Source of the DNA: Spiractinospora alimapuensis
GTDB taxonomy: Bacteria; Actinomycetota; Actinomycetes; Streptosporangiales; Streptosporangiaceae
Length of the DNA: 64,000 nucleotides
Direction: 5' to 3'
Assembly (NCBI RefSeq): GCF_018437505.1
Contig: NZ_CP072467.1
Coordinates: 1,922,001 to 1,986,000 of the forward strand
Shown: piece after piece, positions 454 to 6,033 of the stretch
Numbering within the stretch: the first letter of the stretch is position 1
How the letters are laid out: every line of letters begins with the position of its first letter
Translations under genes and position numbers: made by a program
The notes under the pieces: model-generated
Database searches by the model: none
What the model saw: only the letters and a program-made list of their open reading frames with translations
What the model was told of the DNA's origin: nothing

Positions 454-1986
454 CTACACCAGCCGGGCGTGGCGTAGGCGCCACAGGACGACCGCGATGG
501 CGAGGGCCGCGATCACGGAGCCGAAGATGAAGGCTCCCTGGGTGGCGAGGGTGATGGACTCCGCGGCCGCGTCGACGAGGGTGTCGCCCAAGCCTGCGGG
601 GAGTCCCTCGGCGACGGAGACCGCGCCTCCGGCGCTTTCCTGGGCGGCGGACAGGTCGCCGCCGGTGACCTCGTTTGGCGCGGAGTCGCCCAGGGACCAG
701 CGGTAGATCGCGTTGCCGATGCTTCCCACCAGGGCCAGACCGATGGCGTATCCGAAGCCGGAGCTCACGTCGTTCATGGCAGCGGCGGAACCGGCCCGCT
801 CCTCGGGGGCGACGCTGACGACCAACTGCGCCGCCAGGGTGAGGGCGACCGCCGCGCCGGCGGAGAGCACGGCGAGTCCCACGAGGATTGGCCACACGAC
901 CCCTGTTCGCAGGGCGACGATCACCACCGCCGCGCCGGCGACCGCGACCGCGAGGCCCGCGGACAGGGCGACGGCGGGGCGGAGGAACCGGGTGATGACG
1001 GGGACGAGCATCGTGGTGACGATGGAGGCCACGGCGGGAACCACAAGCAGCAATCCGACCCGGGCGGGGCTCAGGCCCAGGGACACCTGCAGGTGCTGGG
1101 TCATGAAGAGGTCCGTCGCGCCGAAGGCAAGCAGCGACAGCAGACCGACCAGCAGCGCCGCGGGGACACTGGGGCTGGTGAAGAAGCGCAGGTCCAGCAG
1201 CGGGTCGGCGAGGCGGCGCTGACGACGGATGAACATGGCGCCGAGAACGAGGCCGACCACGACCGACGCGACGTAGAGCGGCTTGACGCCGTAGGCTGCG
1301 CTCTCCTGCAGTCCGAAGATCAAGGCCATGACTCCGCCGACGGACAACGCGATGCTCACGGCGTCCAGGCGGCCGACGAGTGGGTCACGGTAGGCGGGCA
1401 GCAGGAAGGGTGCCGCGACGAGGACCACGATCGCGACGGGAACGTTCGCGAGGAAAACCGAGCCCCACCAGAAGTACTCCAACAGGACTCCGCCCAGAGG
1501 TGGGCCGAGGGCGGCTCCGCCGGAGAAGGAGGTCATGACGGTGGCGAACGCGACGCCGAACTGCTTGGGGTCGGGGAACATCGTGCGCAGCAGGCCGATG
1601 GCCGACGGCATGGCGGTCGCCGCCGCGACCCCGAGCAGGGCCCGCATGGCGATCAACATCTCCGCGCTCGTGGAGAAGGCCGCGACCAGGGACGCGGTGC
1701 CGTAGGCGGCGACGCCGATCATGAGCAGCCGGCGACGTCCGATGAGGTCGGTGAGACGGCCCATGGTGAGGACCAGGCCGGCCGCGAGGAACTCTCCCAC
1801 GTGCAGCGTCCACAGCAGTTGCGCACCAGTGGGGTTGAGGTCCGCCGTGATGGACGGAATGGCGATGAACAGCACCGACATGTCGGTGGCCAGCATGAAG
1901 ACGGGGAGTGTCAGCACCGCCAGACCGAACCAGGCCCGCAGCGGCGCCTTGGGAGGTGCCTCGGTCTCGGTGTCGATGGTGGTCAT
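454..1986 (-). CDS. MFS drug exporter, DHA2 (14-TM, EmrB/QacA) family
   Basis: A 510-residue integral membrane protein with the 14-helix layout of proton-coupled multidrug exporters. Motif A is visible as GRLTDLIGRRRLL, and the antiporter motif C as GAALGPPLGGVLLEYFWWG followed by VFLANVPVAI. It should export hydrophobic or antibiotic-like compounds across the cytoplasmic membrane. I chose ATG 1986 (MTTIDTETE) over an in-frame upstream start because AAAGGA lies just before it. It is 64 nt downstream of the flavodoxin-fold gene, probably in one operon, and that operon is divergent from a SARP regulator. Substrate unknown; production-linked self-resistance is inference. Confidence 0.88.
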   Translation of the reverse strand: MTTIDTETEAPPKAPLRAWFGLAVLTLPVFMLATDMSVLFIAIPSITADLNPTGAQLLWTLHVGEFLAAGLVLTMGRLTDLIGRRRLLMIGVAAYGTASLVAAFSTSAEMLIAMRALLGVAAATAMPSAIGLLRTMFPDPKQFGVAFATVMTSFSGGAALGPPLGGVLLEYFWWGSVFLANVPVAIVVLVAAPFLLPAYRDPLVGRLDAVSIALSVGGVMALIFGLQESAAYGVKPLYVASVVVGLVLGAMFIRRQRRLADPLLDLRFFTSPSVPAALLVGLLSLLAFGATDLFMTQHLQVSLGLSPARVGLLLVVPAVASIVTTMLVPVITRFLRPAVALSAGLAVAVAGAAVVIVALRTGVVWPILVGLAVLSAGAAVALTLAAQLVVSVAPEERAGSAAAMNDVSSGFGYAIGLALVGSIGNAIYRWSLGDSAPNEVTGGDLSAAQESAGGAVSVAEGLPAGLGDTLVDAAAESITLATQGAFIFGSVIAALAIAVVLWRLRHARLV

Positions 1987-2050
1987 CTCGATGGTCCTTT
2001 CCGGGAGGTGCCGTGCGACGCTGCTCCGCACGGAACGGTTGAGGTCATGG

Positions 2051-2605
2051 CTAGGGGTGGCGGGGGTAGCGGCGCCTGGCGTCGCGGAGCACTCGTGCCC
2101 ACCAACAGAGCCGGTCGAGGAAGTCGTCGGTGTCCTTCTCGGACTGGGCGCTCGGGTTGCGCGGGTCCTCCGAGGGCGGGCCGCGCCGAATGATCAGGGG
2201 CGGCAGGGTGTGGCCGTTGGGGACGCCAGGCCACAGCCGCTGGAGCGAAAGGTGTTCCGCTGTGCCTTGGTTGTCGAGGACCAGCCCGACCGGCCGGTGA
2301 GTCCAGGCGTCGGCGAACCAGGACCAGGCGGTGTTTGGGGCGGAGACCTCCCAGCGGGGCGAGGTCACCACGATGAAGCCGTCGGCGGTGCTCATTCGGG
2401 GCAACAGCGCGGCGATCGCGCCCGGCATCGGGTCACGCTCGCTGTGGTGGTTCCCCACAGCGGCGAGGGACGTGAGGTCGATCTCATCGATGGTCAGGGC
2501 GCTGTTCTCCCGCGCCCTCCGCGCGAGGTCGCCGGCGGTGTGACAGGCGCGTATTTCGTCGTTCGCCCTCATCACGGCGATGCGTAGCCGGTCAAAGTCG
2601 GTCAT
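2051..2605 (-). CDS. NADPH-dependent FMN reductase-like (flavodoxin-fold) protein
   Basis: 184 residues. The segment DGFIVVTSPRWEVSAPNTAWSWFADAW, then RPVGLVLDNQGTAEHL, resembles the central part of NAD(P)H-dependent FMN reductases (family motif PxYxxSxPxxLKNxxD), but with altered flavin-loop residues. It may be a reductase or a non-catalytic relative. ATG 2605 follows GAGGGGCGG. It is the first gene of a probable operon with the downstream MFS exporter and starts about 55 bp from the SARP-type repeats, so the SARP regulator is its likely activator. Family assignment is moderate. Confidence 0.6.
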   Translation of the reverse strand: MTDFDRLRIAVMRANDEIRACHTAGDLARRARENSALTIDEIDLTSLAAVGNHHSERDPMPGAIAALLPRMSTADGFIVVTSPRWEVSAPNTAWSWFADAWTHRPVGLVLDNQGTAEHLSLQRLWPGVPNGHTLPPLIIRRGPPSEDPRNPSAQSEKDTDDFLDRLCWWARVLRDARRRYPRHP

Positions 2606-2660
2606 GTCCGCCCCTCGGTGGTCCCGGTCTCTCGGCGACTTTCAGACTCCCCGGCGGGGG

Positions 2661-2704
2661 CTCCAGAAGGACTCCAGAAGGGCTCCAACGGGACTCCAGT
2701 CGCT
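2661..2704. promoter_or_regulatory. Four direct repeats at 11-bp period (SARP-type operator)
   Basis: CTCCA begins at 2661, 2672, 2683 and 2694, an exact 11-bp period; the repeat unit is about CTCCAGAAGGR. SARP activators are known to bind heptameric direct repeats separated by 4 bp, one face of the helix per turn, near their target promoters. The array lies between the divergent reductase/exporter operon and the SARP gene, so it probably controls one or both. Confidence 0.7.
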
Positions 2705-2757
2705 GTTCGAGGGCACGGTGGCCAGCCCGCCTCGGGGCACTGCCATACGGTGGGGAC

Positions 2758-5700
2758 ATGCGTTTCGGGATCCTTGGGCCATTAGTTCTGTGGGACGAGT
2801 CCGGGGCCCCAGTGCCGATCCCCGAGGCCAAGGTGCGGAGCCTGCTCGCGGCGCTGCTGGCGCGGGAGGGCGGCGCCGTCTCCGCGGACCGGCTCGTCGA
2901 GGACCTGTGGGGGCGTTCGCTGCCGGCCAACCCGGCACGCGTGCTGCGCGCGAAGGTCTCCCGGCTCCGTGGCGTCCTGGCGGAGGTGGAGAGTGACGGC
3001 CGCGACCGGCTGCGTCACGGCTCCGCCGGCTATCAGCTCCGCGTCGCCATGGGAGACGTGGACGCGCTCCGCTTCGCGGCGATGGTGCGGTGGGCCCGCA
3101 AGGAGGGTGACCCACGCGCGCGCGCCACCCAACTGGACGAGGCCTTGGCGCTGTGGCGTGGGCCGGCGCTCGCCGGTCTGGCCGACGAAGAGTTCGCCGC
3201 GCCCCTCGCCGCCCGGCTGGAGGACGAGCGACTCTCCGCACAGGAAGACCGCGCCGAGGCACACCTCGCGTTGGGCGGGCACCCGGGACTCGCCGACGAG
3301 CTGGCCGCGGTCGTGGCCGAGCATCCCCTCCGGGACCGACTCCGCGCCGCCCACATGCGGGCGCTCTACCAGTCCGGCCGTCAGGCCGACGCGCTGGCCA
3401 GCTTCGACGACCTGCGGCACCGGTTGTCCGAGGAACTGGGCGTGGATCCGGGCCCCGAGGTCCTGCGCCTCCACCAGGAGATCCTGCGCCAGGACGAGAA
3501 CCTGAACGCCCGGAACCACGAACCAGCGTCCCCCACGGCTCTGGCGGAAGCACCCACTGTCCGCGTGACGGCGTCCCCACGGTCAGCCCCGCCGCGCTCC
3601 GTCGACAGCACCATCGCCCGAGAACACGAGATCAGCGAGGTTCGCTCGGCGCTGCTTTCTGGCCGGTTCGTGACACTCACCGGGATCGGTGGCGTGGGCA
3701 AGACCCGCATCGCACTCGAGGTCGCCCACCAGCCCCCCGCCAACCATCCCGCCGACCAGTCCAGTCCTGCCAAGGCCGCCCCGCGGGCCTGGTGGATCGA
3801 ACTCGGTGCCCTCTCCGCCGACGCCACGAAGGGCGACGTGCTGGACGCGATGGAGACAGGTGTAGGTGTCCGTGAGGCGACGTCGAGCACCGGGGTGGCG
3901 GCCCTGGCCTCCGCAGTCGGGTCAGGGTTGCTGGTGCTGGACAACTGTGAGCACGTCATCGACGCTACGGCCGATATCGTGCACGATCTCCTGCGCATCG
4001 CACCGGAACTCCGCGTCCTCGCCACCAGCCGGGAACCCTTGAACGTCGAGGGGGAGGTCGTGTACCCCGTCCCGCCCCTCACCGTGCCCGCCGAGGGCGA
4101 GACCCCCACCGTGGAGGACGCGCTCCCCGCGGCGATGCGGTTGTTCGTGCGGCGGGCCGCCGCCGCGGCCCCCGGGTTCCGGCTCGACGACGGGAACGTC
4201 GACGCCGTGGCGGCCATCTGTCGCCGGTTGGACGGGTTGCCCCTCGCGCTGGAATTGGCGGCGAACGCGGTTCGATCCCTTGGCGTGGCCGAGCTGGCCA
4301 AGCGGCTGGACGACCGGTTCTCCGTGCTGGCGTCACCCAAGCGCGGCGCTCCCCAACGGCAGCGGACCCTGCGCGCGATGATCGACTGGAGCTGGGAACT
4401 GCTGGACGAGGTCGAACGCACGGTCCTTCGTCGGATGTCGGTGCACGTGGGGGGATGCACGCTCGACGCCGCGGAGCGGATCACCGACGGCCCCACACTG
4501 GTGCCGGGCGGAGTGGTGGGGCCACTGTCCCGGCTAGTCGAACGCTCCCTGATCGCGGTGACGCACGCGGAAACCGGCACGCGCTACCGGCTGCTGGAGT
4601 CCATCCGCGCCTACGCCCACGACCGGCTGGTGGAGGCGGGCGAGGCGGCGGCGCTCGCCGAAGAACACCTGAACTACTACACCGACCTCGCCCAACACGC
4701 CGACGGTGCCCTCCGTGGGGGCGAACAGCGCTTCTGGCTCATCCGCCTGGACGAGGAGAACGCGAACCTGCGCGCCGCGCTCGACCACACGCTCCGCACT
4801 GGGGATTCCGACGGCGCGCTGCGTCTCGCCGCGGCGACCTACTGGTACCGGTGGCTGCGTGGCCGGTATGGGGAGGCCAAGCGGGTGTTGGAGGAGGCCC
4901 TCACGCTCGACGGAGGTGACGACGCCCGACGAGCCGTGGTGCGAACCTTGCACGCGGCGGCACAGACCACGGTCCGCGAGCCGGTCGACTGGGCCACGGT
5001 CACCGACGAGGCGATCGCGGCACTGGATCCGGAGGGAAACCCGACGCTGCACGGACGGATCCTCGCGCACGTGGCGACGGTGCTGGTGGAGGCCGGGGAG
5101 GTCGCCGCCGCCGACAGGCATCTCCGCACGGCTCTGGACCTCGTCGAGACTACTGGCGACGTCTGGGGGCGGGCCGCGGTGCTGTGTGGTCTGGTCTGGG
5201 TGCGGTCGTTCTCCGACATCCCCAGCTCCGAGCGCTCTGTCCTCGCCCAGGAGTCCCTCGCCTTGTTCACCCAGGTCGAGGACCAGTGGGGGCAGCTCCA
5301 GGCCATGGCGACGCTCTCCCACGCGACCGAGCCCGACGGCGTGATCGCGGACCTGCCCGCCATGAACCGTGAGGGCGTACGGATCGCCGACGGGCTGGGC
5401 ATGTTGGCGGAGAAGTCCTTCTGGCTGTCCGTCGTCGCCTCGGACGAGGCCGACCGAGGCGACTACACCACCGCCCGGGAGACACTCGAGCGGTCCCAAC
5501 GGCTCGCCATCGACATTGGCTACGTCTTCGGCGAGCGCTACGCGGAGCTCAGCCTGGGAATGCTGGCCCGCCGCGCCGGCCGCCACGCCGACGCCGCCGC
5601 CCACCTCGAGACCTACCTCGCCGACGAGCGCTTCGAGTGCCAGTCCGCCGACGTCGTCCTCGCCTACACCGAACGCGGCTACACCGCCGAACTCATGGGC

Positions 5701-6033
5701 GACCTCGACGAGGCCTTCCGCTACCAGTGGCTCGCCATCGACCACGCCACCGCCCACGGCCCCCTCCCCTCCCTGGCCCAAGCCCTCCAAGCCCTGGCCT
5801 CCACCCTCGCCGCGGCCGGCCACCCGATCCCAGCCGCCCGACTTCTCGGCGCCACCCACCCCTACCGCGGATCGCACCCCACCCCCCTCACCGACTCCGA
5901 CGATGTCGCCCGGACCGAGAACACGGTGAAGGCGGCGCTCGGAGCGGAAGCACTCGCCCAAGAATTCATACACGGCCAGGCCATGGACCTCCACGAGACG
6001 GCGGAATGGGCGAGCAGCGTCGGGGGCGGGTAG
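2758..6033 (+). CDS. AfsR/SARP-type regulator with BTAD, NB-ARC-like ATPase and TPR region
   Basis: 1091 residues. Residues 1-95 form the OmpR-like winged helix of SARPs (FGILGPLVLWDESG... KVRSLLAALLAREGGAVSADRLVEDLWG). A bacterial transcriptional activation domain follows to about 245 (GLADEEFAAPLAARLEDERL... ELGVDPGPEVLRLHQEIL). A STAND/NB-ARC-like ATPase carries Walker A GIGGVGKT near 311 and Walker B LLVLDNCEHV near 391, with ATSREPL as sensor. The C-terminal third is helical repeat, TPR-like. Such AfsR-like regulators activate antibiotic or export genes in response to a ligand or protein signal. The direct repeats just upstream fit autoregulation plus control of the divergent exporter operon. 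Length matches the large SARP class. Confidence 0.9.
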   Translation: MRFGILGPLVLWDESGAPVPIPEAKVRSLLAALLAREGGAVSADRLVEDLWGRSLPANPARVLRAKVSRLRGVLAEVESDGRDRLRHGSAGYQLRVAMGDVDALRFAAMVRWARKEGDPRARATQLDEALALWRGPALAGLADEEFAAPLAARLEDERLSAQEDRAEAHLALGGHPGLADELAAVVAEHPLRDRLRAAHMRALYQSGRQADALASFDDLRHRLSEELGVDPGPEVLRLHQEILRQDENLNARNHEPASPTALAEAPTVRVTASPRSAPPRSVDSTIAREHEISEVRSALLSGRFVTLTGIGGVGKTRIALEVAHQPPANHPADQSSPAKAAPRAWWIELGALSADATKGDVLDAMETGVGVREATSSTGVAALASAVGSGLLVLDNCEHVIDATADIVHDLLRIAPELRVLATSREPLNVEGEVVYPVPPLTVPAEGETPTVEDALPAAMRLFVRRAAAAAPGFRLDDGNVDAVAAICRRLDGLPLALELAANAVRSLGVAELAKRLDDRFSVLASPKRGAPQRQRTLRAMIDWSWELLDEVERTVLRRMSVHVGGCTLDAAERITDGPTLVPGGVVGPLSRLVERSLIAVTHAETGTRYRLLESIRAYAHDRLVEAGEAAALAEEHLNYYTDLAQHADGALRGGEQRFWLIRLDEENANLRAALDHTLRTGDSDGALRLAAATYWYRWLRGRYGEAKRVLEEALTLDGGDDARRAVVRTLHAAAQTTVREPVDWATVTDEAIAALDPEGNPTLHGRILAHVATVLVEAGEVAAADRHLRTALDLVETTGDVWGRAAVLCGLVWVRSFSDIPSSERSVLAQESLALFTQVEDQWGQLQAMATLSHATEPDGVIADLPAMNREGVRIADGLGMLAEKSFWLSVVASDEADRGDYTTARETLERSQRLAIDIGYVFGERYAELSLGMLARRAGRHADAAAHLETYLADERFECQSADVVLAYTERGYTAELMGDLDEAFRYQWLAIDHATAHGPLPSLAQALQALASTLAAAGHPIPAARLLGATHPYRGSHPTPLTDSDDVARTENTVKAALGAEALAQEFIHGQAMDLHETAEWASSVGGG

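Follow-up and report, generated by a model that had tools for sequence, protein, structure and literature searches.

An 11-bp direct-repeat array between a large SARP-type regulator gene and a divergent reductase–exporter operon in Spiractinospora alimapuensis: a predicted local SARP operator

It has been proposed that SARPs can serve as beacons for gene clusters that make antibiotics, and afsS lies near the gene of its regulator. Divergent modules of the TetR/MarR type consist of one regulator and one drug pump or redox operon; the locus described here, located in a 64,000-nucleotide stretch of the S. alimapuensis genome (the whole stretch analysed, hereafter the window), has the same layout of one regulator and one operon, but it appears to combine an activator-type SARP that carries a P-loop/TPR half with a tandem operator, rather than a small repressor with a palindrome. 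Among the closest described systems is AfsR–afsS of Streptomyces coelicolor, in which a SARP carrying NOD and TPR parts acts at 11-bp repeats upstream of a weak −10 (excerpts of PMC10936776). According to the same excerpts, SARP operators contain repeats spaced 11 or 22 bp, with the 3' repeat 8 bp from the −10, and at afsS the repeats extend from −40 to −19 and the weak −10, CACTGT, ends at −7 (PMC10936776). By sequence, the repeats in the window keep the 11-bp spacing exactly and the alignment places the −10 at 6 bp after the last 11-mer, the same gap as can be derived for afsS from the positions given in those excerpts (PMC10936776). The two systems differ in the number of units (two at afsS, four here), in the target, which here is a divergent reductase-like gene followed by an MFS pump, and in the regulator, which here falls below the AfsR equivalog cut-off.

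SARP-LAL operators of the PimR–pimM type are also alike in that heptads with 4-bp spacers lie in the promoter, in relatives between the regulator and its target, and binding to them is cooperative with three heptads being optimal; PimR, however, has a LAL-type C-terminal half and acts on an antifungal cluster via PimM (available part of PMC5930380), whereas the regulator in the window has a P-loop and TPR and no PKS or NRPS genes nearby. The large SARPs PolY and RslR3 share the size class and the domain order but act in biosynthetic clusters (available part of PMC10972967), whereas in this genome about 540 kb separate the locus from the closest ketosynthase match.

Regulator and repeat array in the window

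The features of the locus are as follows.

454–2031, minus strand: MFS efflux pump, DHA2-like, with a plausible alternative start ATG at 1986 (profiles)
2051–2605, minus strand: FMN_red-like protein of 184 aa with degenerate FMN-binding motifs, first gene of the target operon (profile, alignment and model)
2644–2649, minus strand: predicted −10 GAGTCT of the reductase–exporter operon, 6 bp after the last 11-mer (conservation)
2656–2666, minus strand: putative SARP direct repeat 1, CTGGAGCCCCC, nearest the reductase–exporter promoter (sequence; register from the alignment with four close homologous intergenic regions and from the afsS layout in the excerpts of PMC10936776)
2667–2677, minus strand: putative SARP direct repeat 2, CTGGAGTCCTT (sequence and repeat-only register)
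2678–2688, minus strand: putative SARP direct repeat 3, TTGGAGCCCTT (sequence and repeat-only register)
2689–2699, minus strand: putative SARP direct repeat 4, CTGGAGTCCCG (sequence)
2746–2751, plus strand: predicted −10 TACGGT of the regulator gene, at −12 relative to the ATG at 2758 (conserved TANNNT)
2758–6033, plus strand: large SARP-type regulator of 1091 aa, with winged helix (residues 25–92), BTAD (101–243), P-loop and TPR
2947–2964, plus strand: recognition-helix codons R64 to R69; R64, A65 and R69 align with R87, T88 and R92 of AfsR
3682–3705, plus strand: Walker A motif GIGGVGKT in the ATPase region of the regulator (sequence, aligned to AfsR)

In the preliminary description of this DNA, the plus-strand gene was called a giant AfsR-like regulator. 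At the level of domains this is correct: the protein matched Trans_reg_C (PF00486, 29.0 bits, cut-off 26.2, residues 25–92), BTAD (PF03704, 144.4 bits, cut-off 22.1, residues 101–243) and, in its C-terminal part, TPR_12 (33.6 bits, cut-off 30.1), and its best solved relatives by sequence were AfsR (8k60, 8jke, 8hvr) and EmbR. It is not an AfsR ortholog as judged by the NCBIfam AfsR equivalog NF053617, against which it reached 182.7 bits at a cut-off of 1430, and neither NB-ARC nor AAA was matched in Pfam at E 0.001.

CTCCA starts at 2661, 2672, 2683 and 2694, that is, in exact 11-bp steps as first reported, and no fifth CTCCA follows at this spacing beyond the four units of the array. The repeated units are longer than this word: on the minus strand they are 11-mers of the (C/T)TGGAG(C/T)CC type spanning 2656–2699, so that the limits originally given (2661–2704) were slightly off. 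When the four-fold pattern was searched with at most three mismatches, the three matches in the window were all register slides of one array, and the mean in 100 dinucleotide shuffles of the window was 0.00. The single word CTCCA is over-represented in the window (206 occurrences, 131 expected) and thus carries little meaning; it is the spacing that counts.

Within the 5.86 Mb genome, the exact CTCCA triple was found at the array alone (two overlapping forward matches; the remaining matches had two mismatches each), and the exact control gave 0. The two-unit minus-strand form YTGGAGYCCNNYTGGAGYCC likewise had exact genome matches only at the array (three, overlapping). With two mismatches, it matched five other sites in the genome compared to six matches for the backward control, and the genome-wide search that had been proposed for finding a distant biosynthetic cluster therefore yielded no distant target of the same array above background (up to two mismatches). 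As the array occurs once in the genome, there is no sign of a global regulon. Across 150 family genomes, counts taken from the table of matches were 18 for the exact triple (own genome included) and 28 of 150 for the backward control. A view of the array based on CTCCA only was dropped, given that the word is over-represented in the window and the triple is at background in other genomes.

Conservation of period, place and promoter spacing

Homologues of the regulator were collected from the 150 family genomes and from GTDB contigs (best 80 of 587). The 110 loci obtained (L032–L141) and the window gave 104 upstream regions, L032 being the window again and six other loci being dropped for want of the N-terminus or of 250 nt upstream; removal of two duplicates left 102. 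A three-unit repeat score was computed at every period from 8 to 16 with a threshold of at least 19/21. In this set, which includes the best 80 of 587 GTDB matches, 41 of the 104 upstream regions reached the threshold at period 11, compared to 1, 5, 0, 5, 1, 2, 3 and 1 regions at periods 8, 9, 10, 12, 13, 14, 15 and 16, respectively. As a control, the same score was applied within the regulator genes, where the threshold was reached in 0 of 104 genes for period 11 and in 15 for period 12, the latter probably a codon effect. For a second set, 80 fresh loci were chosen by hand from family-genome rows without a locus that matched from residue 1 (lower rows were omitted); one of them, a duplicate of a locus already used, is excluded from the array counts (79 loci) and kept for the leaderless count (80 loci). 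Period 11 was found at 24 of the 79 fresh loci and other periods at 2–9 of 79. Conservation of the repeat in orthologous intergenic regions, on which the initial interpretation had been made to depend, was thus observed. The repeat sequence itself varies among loci (the nearest homologs have TTCCGGA and the window has CTCCAGA) at a constant period, and at the sequence level the conserved feature is therefore the period and the place, not the word CTCCA.

With an array call at a score of at least 18, arrays were found at 64 of 102 loci and at 39 of 79 fresh loci, and none by this scoring rule at the other 38 and 40 regulator loci; some of the scored arrays, such as the poly-C stretch at L201, are evidently repeats that arose by chance. 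The genome of the window contains seven BTAD genes including its own, and for L231, L235 and L236 the script did not locate the start. No second array module was demonstrated among the three other BTAD genes with located starts: L233 scored 18, equal to the cut, and had no hexamer at the expected offset, and L234 and L237 scored 16 each, below it.

The register of each array was set by a profile of the repeats alone, blind to the promoter, and −10 elements were assigned from conservation rather than from a promoter/terminator scan. In the direction of the divergent gene, 46 of 64 arrays had NANNNT at offset 40 and 8 had it one unit further, at offset 51 (53 arrays for the union of both), with no other offset exceeding 3 arrays; the background of NANNNT is 0.024 per position. 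When the rule was frozen and applied to the fresh loci, 28 of 39 arrays had NANNNT at offset 40, and no other offset had it in more than 1 array. The hexamer at the expected offset was absent from 11 of the 64 arrays, the window included, and from 11 of the 39 fresh arrays. The SARP-type geometry initially proposed from the 11-bp period is thus backed by both the period and the fixed −10 spacing in relatives. In the window, the hexamer lies at offset 41 in the blind register, one base off and hence outside the 53 arrays, so its placement rests on the alignment to four homologs; the A and the T of GAGTCT are invariant in all five aligned intergenic regions (window and L033–L036). Counted in a heptad register of the TCGAGCG type, the gap between array and GAGTCT is 8 bp.

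A set of 82 array loci was made up of the 53 and 28 loci with array and hexamer and of the window, which was added by hand at offset 41. The array keeps a fixed spacing from the divergent −10 but lies anywhere from 6 to 171 nt from the regulator start, which indicates that it belongs to the divergent promoter. The original placement of the array between exporter operon and regulator holds, with the correction that it is oriented toward, and spaced for, the minus-strand reductase–exporter promoter. This distance pattern also bears on an autoregulatory function, in which the array would mainly serve the promoter of the regulator itself and control of the reductase–exporter operon would be secondary or absent. 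The array does sit between both genes, at 8 of the 82 loci its proximal edge is at the commonest distance of 19 nt from the regulator start, where a bound protein would meet the regulator promoter, and at L014 and L022 (and L026 by similar sequence) a TTTGGAG array appears by eye to face a SARP-LAL-like regulator. Given the variable distance to the regulator start as opposed to the fixed divergent spacing, and the 46 bp that separate array and TACGGT in the window, we regard autoregulation as the main function as unlikely.

The two promoters also differ in their −10 elements. TANNNT was present 12 or 13 nt before the regulator start at 71 of 102 loci and at 74 of the 80 fresh loci, a spacing that predicts a transcript whose 5' end coincides with the start codon or directly adjoins it; the regulator mRNA thus appears, from its sequence, to be leaderless. 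Among the 82 array loci, the −10 of the regulator keeps TANNNT in 73, whereas the divergent hexamer has the consensus C-A-(C/G)-N-G-T, with C as the first base in 68 and T in 3 loci, and GAGTCT in the window is a poor −10. This departure from TANNNT on one side only fits an activator-dependent divergent promoter. It speaks, together with an array geometry of the SARP activation type, against repression of the divergent operon by an array-bound protein that an inducer would release, as for pump regulators of the TetR type; although divergent regulator–pump pairs are often under repressor control, we consider this very unlikely here. A built-in promoter difference of this kind, mostly CA(C/G)NGT versus TANNNT, is seen at L066, L073 and L183, for example.

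Recognition helix and proposed switch

Positions of the recognition helix were compared with positions of the repeat over the 82 loci using 300 shuffles, which ignore kinship. The strongest pair was residue 64 and repeat position 7 (z 16), with R–C in 10 and R–G in 1 locus, Q–G in 58, Q–C in 3 and Q–A in 1, S–A in 5 and S–G in 1, A–G in 2 and H–G in 1. Residue 65, aligned to AfsR T88, was associated with position 5 (z 10.7), and residue 69, aligned to AfsR R92, with positions 4–5 (z 11–13) and not with position 3. For AfsR, T88 is described as contacting the base at −25, counted here as position 5 of the downstream repeat, and R92 as contacting −27, which is position 3 (excerpts of PMC10936776). 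On a kinship tree built without the DNA-binding domain, the association of residue 65 with position 5 was weak (2 supported pairs), and the R/C trait had 3 supported independent pairs, of which an average of 2.6 went in the same direction (p 0.25 by sign test). The association between helix and repeat is, with few independent changes in these sequences, a lead and not proof.

These data are of relevance for the possibility that the repeats are the site of another protein binding 11-bp repeats, such as PhoP, or a chance tandem duplication. PHO boxes are 11-bp direct repeats too. PhoP recognises the AfsR repeats at afsS (available part of PMC10972967). However, the repeat sequence varies by locus and tracks the recognition helix of the neighbouring regulator, albeit with few independent changes, the genome contains this array only once, and the fresh loci show the same period and spacing, all of which makes this explanation extremely improbable.

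From the sequence comparisons described above, we consider it likely that the array is the SARP operator of the regulator encoded at 2758–6033 and forms a local activating switch of one regulator and one operon. In such a switch, the regulator would be expressed from its own leaderless promoter (TACGGT, 2746–2751) and some signal, for which the pump substrate or an electrophile would be a natural guess, would switch on its ATPase–TPR half. The SARP domains would then line up along one face of the DNA on neighbouring 11-bp units (2656–2699); two SARP pairs could fit on the four units. Bound in this way, the domains would engage RNA polymerase at GAGTCT, the weak −10 at 2644–2649, so that the reductase-like gene and the MFS pump would be turned on. 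By analogy with AfsR, the protomers would touch both the core enzyme and region 4 of sigma, compensating for the weak −10, and the NOD–TPR half would modulate this activity (excerpts of PMC10936776).

Target operon and divergent genes across array loci

The pump matched MFS_1 (126.3 bits, cut-off 33.4), remained below the cut-off of the DHA2, EmrB subfamily model TIGR00711 (136.9 bits, cut-off 230.2), and had QepA and LfrA as its best NCBIfam matches, both below their cut-offs. The 184-aa protein likewise missed Pfam FMN_red (21.2 bits, cut-off 24). Its model, for which homologs were in the modelling alignment, is flavodoxin-like (pLDDT 77.6), and the best PDB matches of the model are FMN-dependent reductases (top match 7f76, E 4e-6). 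In FMN reductases, we take (G/A)SxR to be the FMN loop and PEYN to be a flavin motif. (G/A)S(T/I/V)R and PEYN are kept in 17 of 17 aligned homologs and both are absent from the protein in the window; the alignment left out L151 (short frame) and the flavodoxin-like L166 and L182. Of a second set of 29 reductase loci, at least six of them shared with the alignment, 28 match the loop, L275 reading SSTR, and 23 have PEYN as written. The reading of the locus as an export/redox module is supported by the comparative data, but the loss of FMN-binding motifs that its homologs keep from the reductase-like protein casts doubt on the redox half in this genome. The protein may act in an accessory role without flavin, or it may be an enzyme in the course of being lost. 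With its intact frame and lost flavin motifs, the gene at 2051–2605 is a possible pseudo-reductase with a new role. A second FMN_red-like gene is present in the same genome (G000:C1:4515056–4515385, 38% identity over residues 7–110), about 44 kb from another BTAD gene.

To the right of the regulator gene lie an IclR regulator gene (profile) and then, as judged by eye, a dihydrodipicolinate-synthase-like gene and TRAP transporter genes. In agreement with the early statement that no biosynthetic cluster adjoins the module, PKS/NRPS core genes, which the cluster check covers, are absent nearby: the ketosynthase match mentioned above is the nearest one for PF00109 in the whole genome, and the condensation domain PF00668 had no match anywhere in it.

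The first divergent gene of each of the 82 array loci was picked by a length and third-position GC rule, followed by a Pfam scan and clustering. An oxidoreductase or an MFS pump was found at 79 of them: 23 reductive-aminase-like NADPH reductases, 21 FMN reductase/flavodoxin proteins (Pfam FMN_red itself matches 22 members), 14 MFS pumps, 10 short-chain dehydrogenases, 5 ADH_N_2/zinc-binding dehydrogenases, 4 old-yellow-enzyme-like proteins and 2 FAD_binding_4 oxidases. The three others are L121 (DUF4097), its relative L113, and L092 (alpha/beta hydrolase). In a cruder test, homology to the pump or to three oxidoreductase profiles was found anywhere in the locus in 47 of 53 loci with a validated array and in 19 of the 49 loci without one, the window being counted among the 49. 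L034 contains the full set of regulator, array, reductase with intact motifs and, next to it, an MFS gene.

These comparisons of gene neighbourhoods suggest that many large SARPs control one local redox or pump gene and not an antibiotic cluster. In a 2025 survey of Streptomyces, three of the four SARP subgroups, namely the small, medium and SARP-LAL regulators, are among the regulator subclasses most linked to clusters, and large SARPs are absent from that list, which fits such a local role (PMC12224297). The operator type and the large-SARP architecture were already known. Among the papers listed by searches of the open-licence literature, cluster papers (abyssomicin, rishirilide and others) included, none describes in its title or the start of its abstract the control of a divergent pump or oxidoreductase gene by a large SARP. 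Nor did these listings contain a report of a broad set of large SARPs that each face one redox or pump gene across an operator of this type. We lean, though only somewhat, toward the broader view that one widespread class of actinomycete large SARPs consists of private, leaderless, STAND-type chemical sensors rather than antibiotic regulators, each of which would read its own tandem 11-bp operator through few recognition-helix residues (R64-like/C, Q/G and S/A at position 7) and activate a single divergent gene for an efflux pump or a flavin/NAD(P)H oxidoreductase. The pattern would give many large SARPs a concrete job, the local control of one redox or pump operon, and offers a first guess at a protein–DNA recognition code for this family; with operators predictable from sequence, screens for inducers would be feasible with a simple reporter.

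Several other loci deserve mention. At L113 and L121, both from Nocardia, the divergent gene is of the DUF4097 type (by Pfam for L121, by similarity for L113), the clearest exception to the redox or pump targets. A 728-aa frame at L270 that looked like a reductase–pump fusion was rejected, as the frame crosses a base that is not resolved and the sequence around the join seems to be out of frame; at this locus the two genes simply lie next to each other. Five of the 20 non-window rows with a CTCCA triple were inspected, picked partly because three of them looked alike. L014, L022 and L026 (around 1500–1550), from three other genomes, have exact CTCCA triples beside a BTAD/AAA_16 (SARP-LAL-like) regulator. 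At L014 and L022 the divergent gene codes for a hemerythrin, and by eye the TTTGGAG units seem to point toward the regulator and to be followed, 8–9 bp on, by TACGAT; L026 is similar in sequence. L015 and L029, from another genome (G104), have four CTCCA at 11-bp spacing near a short-chain dehydrogenase gene.
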